A stretch of DNA of 35,550 nucleotides. It comes from Clostridia bacterium (GTDB lineage: Bacteria; Bacillota; Clostridia; Oscillospirales; CAG-272). Each line of letters begins with the position of its first letter. The first letter of the stretch is position 1. This document shows, piece by piece, positions 7,119 through 25,259 of the stretch. The position numbers were made by a program, and so were the translations under genes. The notes beneath the pieces were generated by a model, which was not told the origin of the DNA, ran no database searches, and saw nothing but the letters and a program-made list of their open reading frames with translations. The stretch lies in NCBI GenBank assembly GCA_017451545.1, contig JAFTOB010000049.1, positions 1-35,550 on the forward strand, read 5' to 3'.

Positions 7119-9119
<2,001 letters not shown>

Positions 9120-9143
9120 TCTCAAATTTTGCTCGAGGAGTTA

Positions 9144-9168
9144 AACGGCGTTAAAGTTCACCGCCGTT
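9144..9168 (+). other. Hairpin in the spacer after ligA
   Basis: AACGGCG (9144-9150) and CGCCGTT (9162-9168) form a 7-bp stem with an 11-base loop. There is no T tract, so it is not a convincing terminator. It lies directly upstream of the repeated leader element. Confidence 0.4.
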
Positions 9169-9184
9169 GCCGATGGTTCACCCG

Positions 9185-9290
9185 TTCACGCAAGGTAAAA
9201 ACGCTTTCGGATCAAAGATCAGATCCTCGAGGCGGCTACGTTTTTTCAACAGATTTTGTACCGCCGCGAGGCGGTGGAATGGAGATTAAA
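9185..9290 (+). repeat. Repeated leader element, copy A
   Basis: Bases 9186-9236 match 24346-24396 at 48 of 51 positions, and a weaker resemblance continues to the start codon of the next gene in both copies. The shared core contains CACGCAAGGTAAAAACGC. A GGATC/GATCC stem (9209-9213 with about 9222-9226) becomes GGATT/GATCC in the other copy, where a G-U pair keeps it. Just before the Shine-Dalgarno is a CCGCC-GCGA-GGCGG hairpin (9261-9274); the other copy has a different GC hairpin in the same place. This looks like a structured 5' leader or a small dispersed element. I do not recognise it as a known riboswitch. Confidence 0.7.
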
Positions 9291-9608
9291 ATGAAAAAGA
9301 TCAGCGTTTGCGGCGTTGTGGCTGTTCCTGTTCTGGCCCTTGGCAACGTTTTGCATTTGCCGTTCAGTATATGGCTTTTTTCGGAACAGGCGCAAACCGG
9401 CTTCGGCTTCGGTACCAATATTGAAATGGGGGCTTTGTTTGTCTGGCTTGCGGAATTTCTTTGTATTCCGTTTGTTTTGGCCGGGCTTACGCTGTTCGTC
9501 ATTTCGATCGTGCGACAGGCACGTGCGCCGCTTATTGTGACAAACGCCGTTTTGCTTTCGCTTTTGCTGCTTCAAATAAGCTTGACGAATTTATTTATGC
9601 ATATATAA
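9291..9608 (+). CDS. Small hydrophobic membrane protein
   Basis: This 105-residue protein of unknown function has three hydrophobic stretches, roughly residues 5-28, 45-70 and 76-100, separated by short polar loops such as SEQAQTGFGFGTNIE. It is probably an integral membrane protein with no recognisable motif. GGAG at 9281-9284, six bases before the ATG at 9291, decides this start; a longer frame from 9129 would have to read through the repeated leader element. It is a single gene between ligA and the convergent tRNA-Gly. Confidence 0.7.
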   Translation: MKKISVCGVVAVPVLALGNVLHLPFSIWLFSEQAQTGFGFGTNIEMGALFVWLAEFLCIPFVLAGLTLFVISIVRQARAPLIVTNAVLLSLLLLQISLTNLFMHI

Positions 9609-16245: not shown

Positions 16246-16274
16246 TTGAAAAAATATATGTACTGGTGTAAAAT
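16246..16274 (+). promoter_or_regulatory. Promoter of the giant lipoprotein gene
   Basis: TTGAAA (16246-16251) and TAAAAT (16269-16274) are 17 bp apart. The predicted start near 16281 excludes an in-frame ATG at 16246 and agrees with translation from 16309. Confidence 0.75.
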
Positions 16275-16308
16275 GATAGCACAATTCTTATTAAATGGAG
16301 GGTTAAGA

Positions 16309-19300
16309 ATGCTTATTTCCACTAAAAACGGAAAAACCGGTATAGTCAGAGCCATAGCTCTCGCTATCTGTGTCGTAATGCTCGTTGCATTTGCGGCAGG
16401 TTGTTCCGATGAGCATGCCCAGAGCCTTGCTAATGCTGCGCAGACTGCAGCTGATCAGGCCGCCGAAGCCGCAAAACAGGCACAGGAGGCTGCAAAGCAG
16501 GCCCAGGGAACCGCAGATCAGGCTATTAAGGATGCCGCATCTGCAAATTCGAACGCAAATTCCAAATTCACCGAGGCCCAGGTTGAGGCTGCCATTTTGG
16601 AGATCCTCAAGGACTACGTGAAGGCTGAAGATGCCGCTACCAAGGCTGAGCTGGAGGACGTTTCCAAGCAGCTCGCCAACTATCTCACCGAGGATGCCGT
16701 TAAGGCTCTCATTTCTGCCGCCGCAGCAAGCAAGGATGACCTTGATGCCGCAAAGGAGGAGATCCTTGACGAGGTTTCCAAGATCGTCACCAACCTCGAG
16801 GGCTACTACAACAAGAGCGCTATTGATGCATTTCTTGCAAAGTACTACACCTCCGAGGAAATCGACACTGCTCTCGCCGATTACTATGTAAAGTCTAAGG
16901 TTGACGAGCTTGTTGCCGGTGCTATTGATCCCACTGAGCTTGCTGCTGCTATCGGCACCAGCGAGGAGGAGGTTAAGGAGCTTATCGCTACATATGTAGA
17001 TCCTACCGAGCTCGCAACCGAGCTTGCTAAGTACTACACCAAGACCGAGATCGACGCAAAGTTCCTTGCCAACGAAGAGGCTATGAAGGAATTCGTTGAG
17101 GAGCAGCTGAAGTCTTACGTCACCAAGGATGAGCTCGCAGGCGAGCTTCAGTTCCTCTCCGGTGAGCTCAACGCTCTCGGCGGTCAGCTCAGACAGCTCC
17201 AGAGCAAGCTCATTGAGACTGCAGATAAGACTCTTGCCGATGCAGAGGCTTATGCAAGATCTCTTGTGGAGGCTTACAATGATCTCACTCCCGTTGTTGC
17301 TGAGAAGTATCTTGAGCTTCTTGCACACCAGGAGGCATACATCGATGCGAACGGCTACCTCTACGATGCAGAGGGTCTGAAGGCTGTTTACAACAAGTAC
17401 AACTACGCAACCGTTCTTCTTATCAGAGCCACCAGCCAGGAGGCTATTGACGCTGTTATGGATATCGTTAAGGAGTCCGTCGACGGTGTCGACACCATTC
17501 TTGATCAGCTCTACGACGCACTCGTTGCTGTTGAGGCTACCAAGATCGAGGGTATCAACGGTGAGAAGTACATCGCTATCGCTACCGGTACCTTCACCGA
17601 GGATTCCGGTGCTGCTATCGACGAGTGCCTCGCACTCCTCGACAAGGCTCTTGCAAACGGTATCACCGTTGAGGAGCTGAACGCATATCCCGAGATGGCA
17701 CTTGAGACTGCTACCAAGGCATACGATGCCGAGTACACCAGACTCGAGAACGCTAAGTACGCTGCCGATAACAGCGTATACGCTCAGGCTGTTGTATACG
17801 ATGCAAACCGCACCTACTACAAGCTTGAGGGTGGTGTTTACACTGCTGTTGCTGCAGCCGAGGTAAACGACACCAACTACAGCAACTACTACGTTGTTGA
17901 GAAGACCGCTGTCAACAATCTTGTAAACGCCCTCGAGGATTGGGCTGAGTACAAGAAGGAAGAGACCGTTAAGACCGTTGAGGCTCTCTATGCAAAGCTC
18001 AGCGCCGCAGAGGTTGCTTACTATGCTTGGATGGATGAGTACTTCGAGGCTTACGAGGATGAGGCTAACCCCAACATCGCTCGTCTCATTCCCGGTTGGG
18101 CTACTACTTATAAGGATGCTTCCAACCACTGGGCTGTTCTTGCCGGCATCGACGAGCTGATCGAGGACTACCTCGCAAAGATCAACGATCTTCTCGGCGA
18201 GTCCAAGACCGGTTGGGACAAGAACGATACCGTTCTTTACACTTGGCTCGAGACCATTACCGCTCTCGTAACCGAGCTTGAGGCTGACGATGATACCTAC
18301 GGTTTCATCAGCGTATATCCTGATCTCAAGACCAGATACGAGGACCTGCTTGCTGCCGAGGAGTATGCAGATGCTGCAAATGATCTCTATCTTGCATTTA
18401 TCGACGAGACCAGCGGCAAGTCGGTTTACGGCTACCTTGTTGACCTCGTAGCACTTGATCGCGAGATCACCAACTACAAGCAGTATGGCATTTGCATGGA
18501 GACATACAATGCATGGTTCTTCGACGCTACCACCGGATATCCCAACACCGACGAGGCTAACAGACTTGCTATCGTCAACTCCAATGAGGCAACTCCTGAT
18601 CTCGACAACGAGGTTGCAGCTGCTTCCGCACGCTTTGTACAGCTCAAGCAGGCTGCTGAGATGGCAGAGGAGATCATCAACCCCGCTATCGATGCATTCT
18701 ACGATGCTGAAGGTAACGTAAAGGTTACTTATAAGGACATGGACGCTCTCGAGGCACTCTGGTACTCCATCAACGGCAAGCCCGCTACCGAGACCGAGCC
18801 TGCTGTCAAGGGATGGCTCCAGATCTTTGATATTCCTTCTGATCCCAGAGCAAACGGATACTTTGCTTCTAACTACAATATGGTAGACCACGACAAGCTC
18901 ATTGCAGCTCTCGAGGCTTGCCAGAACGTCATCGGCGAGATCCTTGCTGATCCCGACGTAATCGCATTCAGCGGTATGATCGCGGCTCTCCAGGAGACCT
19001 GGTTCGAGGATGATTACCAGCTCTACTACTACAACGACTACGTAACCGCCAGAAACCTGTACACCACTTGGGCTAACAGATGGGAGATCAACGACATCAC
19101 CCTCGAGACCTTCAACGGTGGTACACAGCAGGGCGAGGTCGATAACATCGGCGCACTCTTCAAGTTCCTCAACACTGTCGGTACAGCAGTTGAGAACGAG
19201 CTCAAGGTTGCTATCGAGACTGACACCATCAACGGTGTTAAGTACGCTATCTTCAATACTGAGATGGCTAAGTTCGCTGACGGCGACTACAAGCCTGCTC

Positions 19301-20781
19301 TCGTTGGTAGCGAGTGGGTAGTTGATGCTTGGACCGTTGCTGATCTGTGGGTCAAGACTCACATCGACTTCCAGACCGAGGGCAGAGGCTTCAATGACGT
19401 TATCAAGTCTATCGACGGTCTCTTCACCGAGGACGAGTACGTAATCGTAAAGGCTGTTTACGAGGAGTACGCTGCATACGTTGCAACCGCAAAGGCAGAG
19501 CTTGAGACTCTCTTTGCCGAGCTCTCCGATTACTTCACTCTCACCGAGGGTGTATATGACTTCAACATCACTCTCATCACCGACGTTCTGCCTCTTGAGA
19601 CTCTCGAGGGCAAGTACACCGGTACTGAGGGCTGGCTCGCAGCTTACGCTGTTACCGACGAGGCTAACATCACCGATGCTGACCTCAAGGCACTTGCGCA
19701 GCAGTTCGACGCTGACCTCACCGCAGTTATGACCGAGCTCAACGCTCTCAAGGCTTCCTACGAGGCTGACCTTGCCGCTCTTGACTTCGACAACAAGCTT
19801 CTCGCTCTCGAGTCCGGCACTCTCACCATCTACAGCAACTACGTTGGCGATCTTGCAGATCTCCGCGCAGCATACAATGCATTCGCTGACAAGTACTTCC
19901 TGGGCAACAACAGCTCTGAGGCATTTGCAAACAGCATGCAGTTCACCGCTCTTAACATCTACGTAAAGAGACTTGAGGCTCTTGAGGCTCAGGTTCGTCT
20001 CCTTGAGGATGCTAAGAAGGCTGACGCCAACGAGTTCATTGCCGCTGTTGAGGCAATTCTCGCAGGTGGCGTTACTACCGATGATTACCAGGCAATTGTT
20101 GATGCTCTCGATATGTTCGCTGAGTGGTCCGCTAACATCGACACCACTTACGAGACCATGTTCGACGGTATCTATCTGACCGGTGAGCTTCTCGGCGCAA
20201 ACGGCGACCTCGTTGACGCTAAGGCTTCTATCGATGAGATCATGGATCTTCTCGAGACCGCTAAGGATGCTATCGCAGATCTCGGCGCAGCCGAGTCTCC
20301 CGCTATCAACTACACCGACAAGACTGCTCTTGATGCTTACAAGGCACTCTACGATGCAGCTGTAGCAGCAGTTGAGGCATTCAAGACCGCAAACGGCAGC
20401 CTTGGTACCACCACTCTTGCTGACGAGTACAGAATTACCGAGGCAGAGCAGGCTATCATCGCTAACGCAAAGGTTGAGATCGACTCCTACGGTTATCTCT
20501 GCAAGGCATACGAGGCATATAACGAGGCATACGGTAAGTACATTGCTGACCAGGGACTTGATCTTGAGGATGAGTTCAAGGTTGAGCTTGAGGCTACCAT
20601 TGCCAACATTAAGGGTCTTGTAGCTTCCGGCGCTGCTGACACCACTGTTCAGGCAGCTACCGACCGTCTCGCATCCGAGCTTGACACCATCGTCAAGGAG
20701 GCCGGCAATATCGGCGGAAGCGAAGCTCCCGATCCCGATGACACAGATCCTGACATCTATCCCGAGGGAACCAATCCCTAA
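16309..20781 (+). CDS. Giant alpha-helical surface lipoprotein
   Basis: The product is 1490 residues. It has a lipoprotein signal with lipobox FAAGC near residue 29, so it is exported and lipid-anchored. The mature N-terminus is an Ala/Gln heptad coiled coil (AADQAAEAAKQAQ). Then come at least seven short units of the YYTKTEIDAKF or YVTKDELAGEL type (up to about residue 290), the kind seen in trimeric phage-fibre and surface-adhesin stalks. The rest is long, acidic and mostly helical, with FIVAR-like stretches and a Pro/Asp-rich tail. There is no sortase motif or C-terminal membrane helix. GGAGG seven bases before 16309 fixes the start. Codon use differs sharply from its neighbours (GCT/GCA Ala, AAG, TAC, AGA/CGT), indicating very high expression. 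It is a single transcription unit with a strong terminator. Function is unknown; adhesin or structural surface layer is my guess. Confidence 0.85.
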   Translation: MLISTKNGKTGIVRAIALAICVVMLVAFAAGCSDEHAQSLANAAQTAADQAAEAAKQAQEAAKQAQGTADQAIKDAASANSNANSKFTEAQVEAAILEILKDYVKAEDAATKAELEDVSKQLANYLTEDAVKALISAAAASKDDLDAAKEEILDEVSKIVTNLEGYYNKSAIDAFLAKYYTSEEIDTALADYYVKSKVDELVAGAIDPTELAAAIGTSEEEVKELIATYVDPTELATELAKYYTKTEIDAKFLANEEAMKEFVEEQLKSYVTKDELAGELQFLSGELNALGGQLRQLQSKLIETADKTLADAEAYARSLVEAYNDLTPVVAEKYLELLAHQEAYIDANGYLYDAEGLKAVYNKYNYATVLLIRATSQEAIDAVMDIVKESVDGVDTILDQLYDALVAVEATKIEGINGEKYIAIATGTFTEDSGAAIDECLALLDKALANGITVEELNAYPEMALETATKAYDAEYTRLENAKYAADNSVYAQAVVYDANRTYYKLEGGVYTAVAAAEVNDTNYSNYYVVEKTAVNNLVNALEDWAEYKKEETVKTVEALYAKLSAAEVAYYAWMDEYFEAYEDEANPNIARLIPGWATTYKDASNHWAVLAGIDELIEDYLAKINDLLGESKTGWDKNDTVLYTWLETITALVTELEADDDTYGFISVYPDLKTRYEDLLAAEEYADAANDLYLAFIDETSGKSVYGYLVDLVALDREITNYKQYGICMETYNAWFFDATTGYPNTDEANRLAIVNSNEATPDLDNEVAAASARFVQLKQAAEMAEEIINPAIDAFYDAEGNVKVTYKDMDALEALWYSINGKPATETEPAVKGWLQIFDIPSDPRANGYFASNYNMVDHDKLIAALEACQNVIGEILADPDVIAFSGMIAALQETWFEDDYQLYYYNDYVTARNLYTTWANRWEINDITLETFNGGTQQGEVDNIGALFKFLNTVGTAVENELKVAIETDTINGVKYAIFNTEMAKFADGDYKPALVGSEWVVDAWTVADLWVKTHIDFQTEGRGFNDVIKSIDGLFTEDEYVIVKAVYEEYAAYVATAKAELETLFAELSDYFTLTEGVYDFNITLITDVLPLETLEGKYTGTEGWLAAYAVTDEANITDADLKALAQQFDADLTAVMTELNALKASYEADLAALDFDNKLLALESGTLTIYSNYVGDLADLRAAYNAFADKYFLGNNSSEAFANSMQFTALNIYVKRLEALEAQVRLLEDAKKADANEFIAAVEAILAGGVTTDDYQAIVDALDMFAEWSANIDTTYETMFDGIYLTGELLGANGDLVDAKASIDEIMDLLETAKDAIADLGAAESPAINYTDKTALDAYKALYDAAVAAVEAFKTANGSLGTTTLADEYRITEAEQAIIANAKVEIDSYGYLCKAYEAYNEAYGKYIADQGLDLEDEFKVELEATIANIKGLVASGAADTTVQAATDRLASELDTIVKEAGNIGGSEAPDPDDTDPDIYPEGTNP

Positions 20782-22342: not shown

Positions 22343-22614
22343 ATATTTTTATTGGCGATACGGAAAATAGCCGTTTGCGTGACGCGACAGAGAGAGGTCG
22401 GTTGGTGCGAGACCTTGCGGAGCGTGTTCGGCAGCTCATTTCCGTCAGGGCTCGGCCCACGCTTGCCGAAGAAAGCCGCGAGTCGGTGATTAGAACGGCA
22501 CGTTTGCCCCGCGTTATGGGGATCGAGAGCATACGCGCTGTGTTTGGCGTGTATGAAACCGGGTGGTACCGCGAAATTTTTCGTCCCGGAGGCATTGCCT
22601 CCGGGACTTTTTTT
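22343..22614 (+). promoter_or_regulatory. T-box riboswitch (tRNA-sensing leader)
   Basis: All main T-box parts are present. Stem I is closed by ACGGAAA (22360-22366) with TTTCCGT (22439-22445). Distal elements AGAGAG (22389-22394) and GGTTGGTG (22400-22407) follow, with a GGTC/GACC helix. The T-box GGGTGGTACCGCG is at 22561-22573. The terminator is GTCCCGGAGGC/GCCTCCGGGAC (22583-22607) with seven T. The antiterminator bulge is TGGT (22564-22567); its variable T calls for a tRNA with discriminator A, which excludes this genome's tRNA-Gly (discriminator T). The specifier codon is not certain by eye: TTC (Phe, 22427-22429) fits one fold of the specifier loop, and GTG or GTT (Val, 22424-22428) fit others. 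Uncharged tRNA would prevent termination and switch on the downstream ligase gene. Confidence 0.93.
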
Positions 22615-22645
22615 CGGAGAGCACTCAACGAAAGGACCATGCACT

Positions 22646-24307
22646 ATGGAATTTATCAACATGACTATCGGCGAATGGATGGATAAGATCGCCGATGAAC
22701 ACCCCGACCAGCCTGCGGTCATTTTTACACACGATTTTGACTACAAGCGCACATACCGTGAATTCAACGACGAGGCCCACACAATTGCCAAGGCGTTTCT
22801 TGCTATGGGAATCAGGAAGGGAGACCACGTTGCGATCTGGGCGACCAACTATCCCCAGTGGCAGCTGACGCTTTTTGCCTGCGCCAAGATCGGTGCGGTG
22901 CTTGTTACCGTGAACACGGGCTACAAGATCCACGAGGCCGAGTATCTGCTCAAGCAGTCGGATACCAAGATGCTCGTTATGTGCGACGGCTTCAAGGATA
23001 CGAGCTACGTTGATATTATGAACCGCCTTTGCCCCGGAATCGAGACCGGCGATCGGGCGAATATAGAGTCGAAGCGTCTGCCCGTGCTCAAGAAGATCGT
23101 GACCATCGACGAGGAGAGCCACGCGGGAATGTACAATTGGCGAGAGCTTTACGCCATGGCCGATCAGGTCAGCGACGAGGAGTACACCGAGGCGCGAAAG
23201 GGTCAGGATCCCCACGACGTTGTCAATATGCAGTATACCTCGGGAACCACCGGCTTCCCCAAGGGCGTTATGCTGACTCATTATAATATTCTGAACAACG
23301 GAAAGACCATTGGCGACCGTATGAAGTTCAGCGAAAAGGACCGCCTTTGCATTACGGTTCCGCTTTATCATTGCTTCGGGCTCGTGCTTGCTACTATGGC
23401 CAGCATTACCCACGCCACCACTATGGTGCCCGTGAAGTATTACAGTCCCATCAAGGTGCTGGAGGCTCTGCAGAATGCGAAATGCACCGCAGTTCACGGC
23501 GTTCCCACTATGTTTATAGCGATGCTTGAGCATCCGAGATTTTCCGAGTTCAAGTTCTGCCTGCGCACCGGAATTATGGCGGGCTCACCCTGCCCCATTA
23601 AGGTTATGCAGCAGGTGGTGGACGATATGGGAATGCGCGAGATCACCATCGTTTACGGTCAGACCGAGGCGTCGCCCGGTTGCACTCAGACCACTACCGA
23701 CGATAGCCTCGAGCGCCGCGTAAGCACCGTTGGCCGCTCCTTCCCGGGAGTTGAGACCAAGATCGTCGATCCCGAGACGGGCGAGACTCTGGGTCCCGGT
23801 CAGGTGGGCGAGTTCTGCGCCCGCGGATACAACGTTATGAAGGGCTATTACAAGATGCCCGAGGCCACGGCGCAGGCAATCGACAAGGACGGCTGGCTTC
23901 ATACCGGCGACCTTGCCACGGTTGACGCCGAGGGCTACTACAAGATCACGGGTCGAATCAAGGATATGATCATCCGCGGCGGCGAGAACATTTACCCCAA
24001 GGAGATCGAGGACTTTATTTACACTCATCCGAAGGTCAGCGACGTGCAGGTCGTCGGCGTGCCCAGCAAGGCCTACGGCGAGGAGATCATGGCCTTCGTT
24101 ATTCCCAAGGAGGGTGAGGAGCTGACCGAAAAGGAGATCAAGGATTACGTGCTGGCTTCCATGGCCAAGCATAAGGTTCCTTCCTTCGTTTCGTTCATCA
24201 GCGAGTTCCCAATGAACGGCGCGGGAAAGATACTGAAATACAAGCTGCGCGAGATGGCTATTGAGGAAAAGAATCTCCACGATGCGGCATCCATTGAAAC
24301 CGCTTAA
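22646..24307 (+). CDS. AMP-forming acyl-CoA ligase under T-box control
   Basis: This 553-residue adenylate-forming enzyme would activate a carboxylic acid with ATP and transfer it to CoA in the cytoplasm. The P-loop motif YTSGTTGFPKG is at residues 197-207. YGQTEASPG, then GWLHTGDLA, GRIKDMIIRGGENIYPKEIE, and the catalytic C-terminal Lys528 in NGAGKILKYKLRE follow in the usual order. There is no signal peptide or membrane segment. It resembles medium-chain or FadD-type ligases; the acid is not identifiable from sequence. AAAGGA nine bases before the ATG at 22646 supports this start; an upstream in-frame ATG lies within the T-box. Regulation by a T-box is very unusual for this family and ties the enzyme to an amino acid, perhaps by activating a branched-chain or aryl acid precursor. 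Confidence 0.93.
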   Translation: MEFINMTIGEWMDKIADEHPDQPAVIFTHDFDYKRTYREFNDEAHTIAKAFLAMGIRKGDHVAIWATNYPQWQLTLFACAKIGAVLVTVNTGYKIHEAEYLLKQSDTKMLVMCDGFKDTSYVDIMNRLCPGIETGDRANIESKRLPVLKKIVTIDEESHAGMYNWRELYAMADQVSDEEYTEARKGQDPHDVVNMQYTSGTTGFPKGVMLTHYNILNNGKTIGDRMKFSEKDRLCITVPLYHCFGLVLATMASITHATTMVPVKYYSPIKVLEALQNAKCTAVHGVPTMFIAMLEHPRFSEFKFCLRTGIMAGSPCPIKVMQQVVDDMGMREITIVYGQTEASPGCTQTTTDDSLERRVSTVGRSFPGVETKIVDPETGETLGPGQVGEFCARGYNVMKGYYKMPEATAQAIDKDGWLHTGDLATVDAEGYYKITGRIKDMIIRGGENIYPKEIEDFIYTHPKVSDVQVVGVPSKAYGEEIMAFVIPKEGEELTEKEIKDYVLASMAKHKVPSFVSFISEFPMNGAGKILKYKLREMAIEEKNLHDAASIETA

Positions 24308-24351
24308 GCGTGAGACGTTGCCTTCCTGCGGTTGAGGAGATCTGCTCACGC
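24308..24351 (+). other. Hairpin upstream of leader copy B
   Basis: GCGTGAG (24308-24314), immediately after the ligase stop codon, is exactly complementary to CTCACGC (24345-24351), which is part of the repeated element. There is no T tract. It would fold the beginning of element copy B into a long-range stem. Confidence 0.4.
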
Positions 24352-24452
24352 AAGGTAAAAACGCTTTCGGATTAAAGATCCGATCCGCGAGGCGGCCGAG
24401 TTTTTCGAAAAAATATTTTTGCCGCTGTACGGGCGGCGGAAGGGAATTTGAT
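24345..24452 (+). repeat. Repeated leader element, copy B
   Basis: This is the second copy of the element at 9185-9290, with 48 of 51 bases identical over 24346-24396 and weaker similarity up to the start codon. CGGAT (24368-24372) pairs with ATCCG (24378-24382). GCCGC (24421-24425) pairs with GCGGC (24433-24437) in the position where copy A has its CCGCC/GGCGG hairpin. As in copy A, it ends at the ribosome binding site of the next gene. Confidence 0.7.
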
Positions 24453-25259
24453 ATGAAGCTTTCGTTTTCAACACTCGCGTGCCCCGATTGGAGCTTTCGC
24501 GAGGTTTATGCCGCCGCGGCCGATCTGGGCTACGACGGAATAGAGATCCGCGGCATTGCCGACGAGATCTATGCGCCCCATATTGTTAATTTTTCCGATG
24601 AAAAAATAGAGAGAGCCAAGGCTCACCTGACCAAGCGCGGGCTTGAGATCCCCATGCTGACCAGCAACGCATCGGTGCTTGACGGCGGCGATTTTGAGGC
24701 CTGCAAAAAGGAGATCCGCGATTATTGCGAGCTGGCTCAAAAGCTGGGCGTTCCCTACGTGCGCGTTTTGATGGAAAAGACTCCCGGTCCCGTTATTGCG
24801 CCCGATTTTGATTACGCGGTGAAGAAATACCGCGAGCTGTGCGCTGTGGCCGCTGAGTATAGCGTGACCCTTCTGACCGAGACAAACGGCTTTTTGGCCG
24901 AAAGTGCGGTTTGCGCACGCTTTATGAAGTCGGTGGGCGCGGAAAACGCAGGTCTGATCTGGGACGTTCACCATCCTTACAGATTTTTCGGCGAGACGCC
25001 CGCGCAGACGGCCGCAAACATCGGCGCCTACGTCAAGCACGTGCATTTCAAGGATTCGGTGAAGGGAAGTAACGGCCGCGTGACCTATATGCTGACGGGC
25101 TACGGAGATTTCCCCTTTGAGGAGGTCATCGACGAGCTGAAGCGGCTGGGCTACGACGGATATCTCTCCTACGAGTGGGTCAAGCGTTGGTCCCGCGAGC
25201 TGGCCGAGCCCGGCGTGGCGCTCTACCAGTATATCAGCTATATAAAGAGCCTGATCTGA
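24453..25259 (+). CDS. Sugar phosphate isomerase/epimerase-type TIM-barrel protein
   Basis: The 268-residue protein belongs to the xylose isomerase-like/AP-endonuclease 2 barrel superfamily. It starts MKLSFSTLACPDWSF and has LGYDGIEIRG. Metal-ligand-like residues follow in barrel order: Glu in LLTETNGF, Asp/His in IWDVHHPYRF, His in VKHVHFKDS and Glu in YLSYEWVKRW. This pattern fits hydroxypyruvate isomerase, tagatose epimerase and inosose dehydratase relatives; the substrate is unknown. AAGGG about nine bases before the ATG is the ribosome binding site. The leader is repeat copy B. The next gene starts four bases after the stop, so the two are coupled. Confidence 0.88.
   Translation: MKLSFSTLACPDWSFREVYAAAADLGYDGIEIRGIADEIYAPHIVNFSDEKIERAKAHLTKRGLEIPMLTSNASVLDGGDFEACKKEIRDYCELAQKLGVPYVRVLMEKTPGPVIAPDFDYAVKKYRELCAVAAEYSVTLLTETNGFLAESAVCARFMKSVGAENAGLIWDVHHPYRFFGETPAQTAANIGAYVKHVHFKDSVKGSNGRVTYMLTGYGDFPFEEVIDELKRLGYDGYLSYEWVKRWSRELAEPGVALYQYISYIKSLI

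Follow-up and report, generated by a model that had tools for sequence, protein, structure and literature searches.

The two similar stretches found ahead of genes in the window, by which we mean the whole 35,550-nucleotide stretch of DNA analyzed here, are copies of an amplifying, modular and structured repeat of the BOX/bcr1 kind, and not a riboswitch of two genes. The explanation that, taken as a whole, probably accounts best for the data is a family of interspersed structured repeats amplifying within individual lineages of Oscillospiraceae-type Clostridia, each element being a non-coding, structure-conserved repeat of about 150 nt composed of three modules: module A, formed by helix P1; module B, a three-way junction built on helix P2; and module C, comprising the P3 hairpin and an SD.

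The two copies in the window

Copy 1 is situated between a gene encoding NAD-dependent DNA ligase LigA (7137-9119, + strand; Pfam) and one encoding a 105-aa hydrophobic protein of unknown kind with no Pfam match (9291-9608, +). Immediately 5' of this copy the sequence contains an SD-like GAGGAG (9135-9140, +), a candidate for the original ribosome-binding site. In module A (9148-9191, +), P1 pairs 9148-9154 with 9185-9191 with one mismatch and closes a variable apical hairpin; in module B (9197-9245, +), P2 pairs 9197-9204 with 9238-9245, again with one mismatch, and encloses two hairpins; module C (9260-9293, +) comprises P3 (9260-9265 with 9270-9275), the SD GGAG at 9281-9284 and the ATG at 9291. 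Copy 2 follows a gene for an AMP-binding enzyme (acyl-CoA ligase-like; 22544-24307, +; Pfam), the stop codon of which directly abuts the start of the copy, and precedes a gene for a xylose isomerase-like TIM barrel protein (PF01261; 24453-25259, +). Its module A (24308-24351, +) pairs GCGTGAG at 24308-24314 with CTCACGC at 24345-24351, an A-T pair being compensated to G-C, and copy 1 has GCGTTAA and TTCACGC in the same positions. Module B of copy 2 (24357-24405, +) pairs 24357-24364 with 24398-24405 with one mismatch and also holds two inner hairpins, and module C (24421-24455, +) combines P3 (24421-24426 with 24432-24437), an SD-like AAGGGAA at 24440-24446 and the ATG at 24453. Pfam was run on these four neighbors, and all other genes mentioned below were named by reading their protein sequences.

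The preliminary description of this DNA reported a 51-base core, 94% identical at two places on the same strand and ending at a ribosome-binding site. We likewise find 48 of 51 bases identical, with both places and the strand in agreement and each copy running up to the SD of the next gene. The GC hairpin that it described is seen in both copies, and the stem said to keep pairing through a G-U change corresponds to a real C-G to U-G change in an inner hairpin of copy 2 (pair 73-78, with one UG row in the alignment). Although both sites had been placed correctly, their extent had not: an alignment of 12 copies from the genome puts the true start of the element about 37 nt upstream of 9185 and 24345, at 9148 and 24308. 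The 26-base start occurs at just two sites in the window, one in each copy, and at none in 100 shuffled sequences. A terminator and promoter scan of the window copies detected no sense-strand terminator; its one terminator-like site, in copy 2, was weak and antisense. Because single-copy folding is only mildly better than that of shuffled sequences (z of -1.87 and -1.05), the structure is established by the relatives described below and not by the window copies. Elsewhere in the window, an open frame of 1511 aa (16246-20781) begins like a lipoprotein and contains coiled-coil-like repeats rich in Ala, Lys and Gln.

Fold and distribution of the element

With 81 nt of copy 2 as the query, the window's own genome (G000; 2.38 Mb in 173 contigs) yielded 34 matches at E <= 10, of which 12 lay at E <= 8e-12 and the next at 0.09. 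A covariance model built from the 12 copies (R1) recovered two further intact, divergent copies, L054 and, before mreB, L055. The label of two-copy element given earlier is therefore right for the window, but the genome contains 12 close and at least two divergent copies. Judged from their sequences, the genes that follow the 12 close copies are unrelated to one another, encoding inorganic pyrophosphatase, leuA, coaD, sugar-phosphate isomerase-like proteins, an ABC exporter and small membrane proteins. A doubtful R1 match before pnuC (L053) was judged to be a different leader and was excluded from the counts; this leader of a pnuC-like gene (contig C137, oriented positions ~1501-1700) is made of two similar half-copies (GGTGAAGCTCATCCGATCACAAAAGGCGAAAAA and a variant), with a weak match to R1 and no Rfam match.

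The alignment of the 12 copies defines a constant order, in which GCGTGAA pairs with TTCACGC to form P1, AAAAACGC pairs with GCGTTTTT to form P2 around two hairpins, and a spacer leads to the GC hairpin P3 and to GGAATGGAGATTA-NN-ATG; one of the 12 (L012) is without P3. Covariation within these 12 copies alone is modest. Across 33 distinct aligned sequences, P1 is paired in 99.6%, with compensatory changes, and in the relatives all eight pairs of P2 show changes on both sides. Overall, 92.4% of cells are paired, as against 70.9% in shuffled alignments and at most 51.3% in slid ones; 25 of 30 pairs are changed on both sides (17.2 in shuffles, 13 in the best slid alignment), and 202 cells carry double changes (60.8 in shuffles, at most 49 when slid). 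Helix 2 is weak in every count, with 37.9-59.1% paired, and was not relied on. This alignment was fitted to the covariance model and hence leans towards structure, which makes alignment-free folding the better evidence. Folded in this way, 31 representatives from 30 genomes gave a mean z of -5.4, and nearly all of them showed P1 and the three-way junction, the type found in G000 itself and that of G403 folding partly otherwise. The sequence of P3 is variable too; a credible hairpin ahead of the start signal is present in 26 of the 31 representatives, while two lack any P3-like hairpin and three have only spurious ones. The preliminary description had made an RNA role conditional on covariation, and covariation among the 33 distinct sequences is strong. 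Selection on folding, whether as RNA or as single-stranded DNA, is thus real.

Applied to four genomes, R1 detected five copies in the congener G001; G002 and G003 had none. In a family sample it identified six carriers among 295 genomes, with quite different P2 and hairpin sequences and the same topology. A second covariance model (R2), built from 12 sequences and run with nine candidates scored per genome, recovered this fold from 73 of 395 family genomes, representing 24 of 71 genera; at E <= 1e-4, it also identified six carriers in an order sample of 295 genomes, of which two belong to another family. The exact module A pattern was matched 65 times, in 60 stretches, in the genome_contigs collection (84,980 species), and all of these matches fall in records labeled Clostridia, Oscillospiraceae, Eubacteriales or Bacillota, exclusively gut or rumen Clostridia-type MAGs. 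The same pattern had no match in viral_contigs, and the exact core of the G000 type had none in genome_contigs, a collection from which the window's own genome may be absent. These counts are drawn from draft MAGs, whose contigs often end in the element, include some related species and use simple ORF calls as genes.

Searches of Rfam 15 with 28 sources (the window and 27 loci), both at gathering thresholds and at permissive E-values, returned nothing credible over the element, in line with the initial impression that it resembles no recognized riboswitch; the sole sub-threshold match noted over a copy (L121) was to a eukaryotic microRNA model, on the opposite strand.

Amplification and landing sites

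Sequence identity within module B has a median of 0.90 within genomes (132 pairs) and 0.59 between genomes (2643 pairs). In one genome of a second genus (RGIG4705, G276), the 11-base start of module A occurs 39 times, compared with three for a reversed-pattern control, and module C occurs 41 times at up to three mismatches, with none in the control. Several junctions are filled in one genome and empty in relatives. G000 carries the element at obg-ppa, a junction that is empty in G001, G002 and G003, and at rsmD-coaD, which is empty in G001 and G002. G001 carries it at spoIIIAB-AC (empty in G000 and G003), at glmM-glmS (empty in G003) and at murE-murF (empty in G000). In the second genus, the spoIIR site is filled in RGIG4705 and empty in all four congeners. 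Since the orthologous sites are empty in relatives, the element at these junctions would most simply be an addition rather than an ancestral leader lost elsewhere. This insertion polymorphism is one between species, and the relatives compared are so diverged that the insertion ends are known approximately and not to the base. Some vertical retention is also evident, L136 and L141, as well as L137 and L142, being the same sites in related genomes.

Copies also occur in tandem, head to tail, in units of about 150 nt in which the next unit begins right behind the SD of the previous one (G070, G115, G341, G061 and G342, the last with three units), giving the junction ...GGAGATTA|GCGTGAAA. The number of modules varies. 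Besides A-B-C, RGIG4705 has an A-B-A-B-C arrangement with a period of about 106 nt and two loci (L317 and L335) in which A is joined to C without B at an identical, exact junction, as if B were precisely removable or A-C moved as a unit; other forms of A-C are found in L126 and L156. Module C is also found by itself, preceding rsmD and other genes in G000 and, in RGIG4705, a glmS-like gene among others. In G000, the hairpin and SD of module C were observed alone ahead of many genes (loci L090, L098, L102-L106, L114 and L119), and could represent either decayed copies of the element or a general feature of translation starts.

The flanks of the element point to a preferred landing site. After setting aside eight tandem copies from 123 distinct ones, 74% of the 115 solo copies have an SD-like motif within 15 nt 5' of the element, versus 5-13% in 15-nt control windows further upstream; in most solo copies the motif starts 8-10 nt before GCGTG, and about a quarter have no SD-like motif in front. 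Several left flanks coincide in position with the ribosome-binding site of an empty relative. In 55 of 75 model matches, the dinucleotide TA stands directly ahead of the element; this count excludes the pattern matches, in which TA is fixed. A check for target-site duplication revealed an SD-like GGAG..TA on both sides of many copies, the right-hand one seeming to be part of the element; at obg-ppa, the right-hand SD looks like the host's own.

On the 3' side, 39 of the 65 pattern matches are followed by an SD, a start codon and an open reading frame, seven by a tandem copy and six by the end of the contig. The other 13 include four short-period tandems (L194, L195, L203 and L206) and one with the same short-period pattern (L218), one that runs into a further copy (L191), two that look truncated (L201 and L204), and five intact ones at 3' ends or without an evident gene start after them (L205, L231, L236 and two in L228). 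With a simple gene caller, 42 of the 65 could be classified by orientation, 20 being too near the end of the locus and three having no flanking gene call. Thirty-seven of these 42 point at the next gene (29 co-directional and eight divergent towards the gene), four are convergent and one is antisense. Many copies scattered without respect to orientation had been named beforehand as the sign of a simple repeat; the copies are indeed many, but these 37 do respect it.

Competing explanations and known repeats

The preliminary description offered two readings, a regulatory RNA shared by two genes and a small mobile palindromic element that had landed before genes. Strong support for the second comes from the dispersion of the copies, their amplification in particular lineages, the tandem arrays and the orthologous sites that are empty. 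The first, generalized to a cis-regulatory RNA (a riboswitch, protein-binding leader or attenuator) whose copies form one regulon, would explain why the element lies nearly always 5' of a gene and in sense orientation, why its covariation is strong and why P3 sits a few nucleotides ahead of the SD in most representatives. We nevertheless consider it unlikely, given that the genes it would control (ppa, leuA, coaD, mreB, spoIIIAC, glmS, murF, dapA, queA, rubredoxin) are unrelated and form no coherent set, that insertion sites differ between congeners with few common to several genomes, and that the sequence is homogenized within genomes and not between them; a few intact copies, moreover, have no gene behind them, the window copies lack a sense-strand terminator and no Rfam family matches. 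Conservation of a fold together with a gene-proximal position is therefore not proof of a regulatory RNA, and elements of this sort will be called novel leaders in comparative RNA screens.

Still less probable, and the least so of the alternatives weighed here, is a leader-peptide device in which the upstream SD would drive translation of a short open reading frame from a GTG inside P1, this translation governing P1 and the downstream start. The near-ideal spacing from SD to GTG in most copies and the nearly invariant GTGAA speak for such a device, but the length of the frame is not conserved, varying from 2 to 65 codons while the other two frames scatter widely too, and the GTG is lost in four of the 75 model matches (L008, L010, L011 and L134), two of which (L011 and L134) keep the P1 pair by compensation. 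Elements of the IS200/IS605 type lack terminal inverted repeats, carry hairpins at their ends and insert in a fixed orientation to their target. A MITE-like derivative of such a Y1 element, moved as single-stranded hairpin DNA, would accordingly fit an element that has no terminal inverted repeats, has hairpins at both ends, keeps a fixed orientation to its target and preserves its fold while its sequence changes. We regard this derivation as improbable: the Y1 transposase domain (PF01797) was found in 12 of 30 genomes tested, uncorrelated with carriage, being present in some genomes with no detected element and absent from several carriers, including G000 and G001 (91-92% complete drafts), and that search yielded no mobilizing enzyme; nor was there an autonomous copy among the 26 inspected of the 39 module A starts in RGIG4705. 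The idea that the variable P1 loop acts as a guide matching its own flanks was also tried, and four tests on 19 copies gave permutation fractions of 0.25, 0.87, 0.18 and 0.04, which is not convincing.

Returning to the amplifying structured repeat, we infer that it would spread by transposition in trans, or by an equivalent copying process that recognizes the folded strand, and that its main point of entry would be the stretch separating an SD from its start codon. After insertion, the original SD would face the GCGTGAA of the element, and the element's own hairpin and SD would provide a new start signal for the downstream gene, so that insertion into an operon could be tolerated. A structural role in the 5'-UTR acquired later, in stability, insulation or translation, would be secondary and putative. 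The site bias could stem from targeting of the SD spacer or from random insertion followed by selection retaining harmless sites. We further suggest, tentatively and at somewhat short of an even chance, that the repeat belongs to a new class of mobile elements, copied by machinery that would target the SD-start spacer with the folded element as its recognition signal. Each insertion would split the initiation region and rebuild it by means of the carried hairpin and SD, a self-masking insertion that would extend to tandem copies of the element itself. Small folded repeats are normally tolerated at harmless places, such as behind genes; this family occupies the most sensitive spot of the operon, where it nevertheless appears to rebuild the start signal. 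It thus offers a clean system in which to study the possible targeting of translation signals by a mobile element, the agent that copies it, and the frequency of domesticated or parasitic elements among bacterial leaders.

Compared with known repeats, the insertion site and the built-in SD are the unusual aspects of the element. Like the pneumococcal BOX elements (boxA-boxB(n)-boxC), as described in the parts of PMC3049150 available to us, it is a small, folding, modular repeat located between genes, with a variable number of modules (A-B-C, A-C, C alone and A-B-A-B-C) and no functional class of neighbor. The same parts of that source report an excess of BOX, RUP and SPRITE between convergent genes and describe no built-in hairpin and SD end for BOX, whereas 37 of the 42 classifiable copies of our element point at the gene behind them, most of them at its SD; the likeness to BOX is one of description and not of sequence. 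The opposite bias favors targeting, or selection via the carried SD, but is no proof of it. The Bacillus cereus repeat bcr1 (of the series bcr1-bcr18) is, according to the accessible portions of PMC3446304 and PMC2267715, MITE-like, with a conserved secondary structure, and often found in UTRs and operon gaps; it shares with our element a conserved fold and a length of about 150 nt (bp for bcr1, from PMC2267715). Compared by description, bcr1 differs in host group and sequence, and the portions of those two papers seen mention no SD-adjacent insertion with a built-in SD. MITEs such as RUP, Correia and ERIC are likewise non-coding, folded, dispersed and non-autonomous, and our element is itself dispersed, amplified, non-coding and insertion-polymorphic, but it has no clear target duplication and no terminal inverted repeats, its ends GCGTGAAA and GGAGATTA not being inverted repeats on inspection. 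The literature consulted yielded no description of the element or of SD-spacer insertion, and an unnamed model among the 3161 candidate RNAs in the supplementary tables of PMC8040213 could possibly correspond to it.

Other structured RNAs were observed near element loci. A T-box leader (L004, 2049-2244, - strand; 66.9 bits, below gathering and cut by the contig end) lies upstream of ridA-leuA, the junction of which carries an element copy. Gut-1 RNA (RF01706), in which hairpins recur between GUGAAAU linkers, gives no match over the element; it was found at L002 (318-395 and 407-483, -) and at L055 (2666-2736, +), with two of the three matches above gathering. Gut-1 is perhaps a repeat family of these genomes in its own right.
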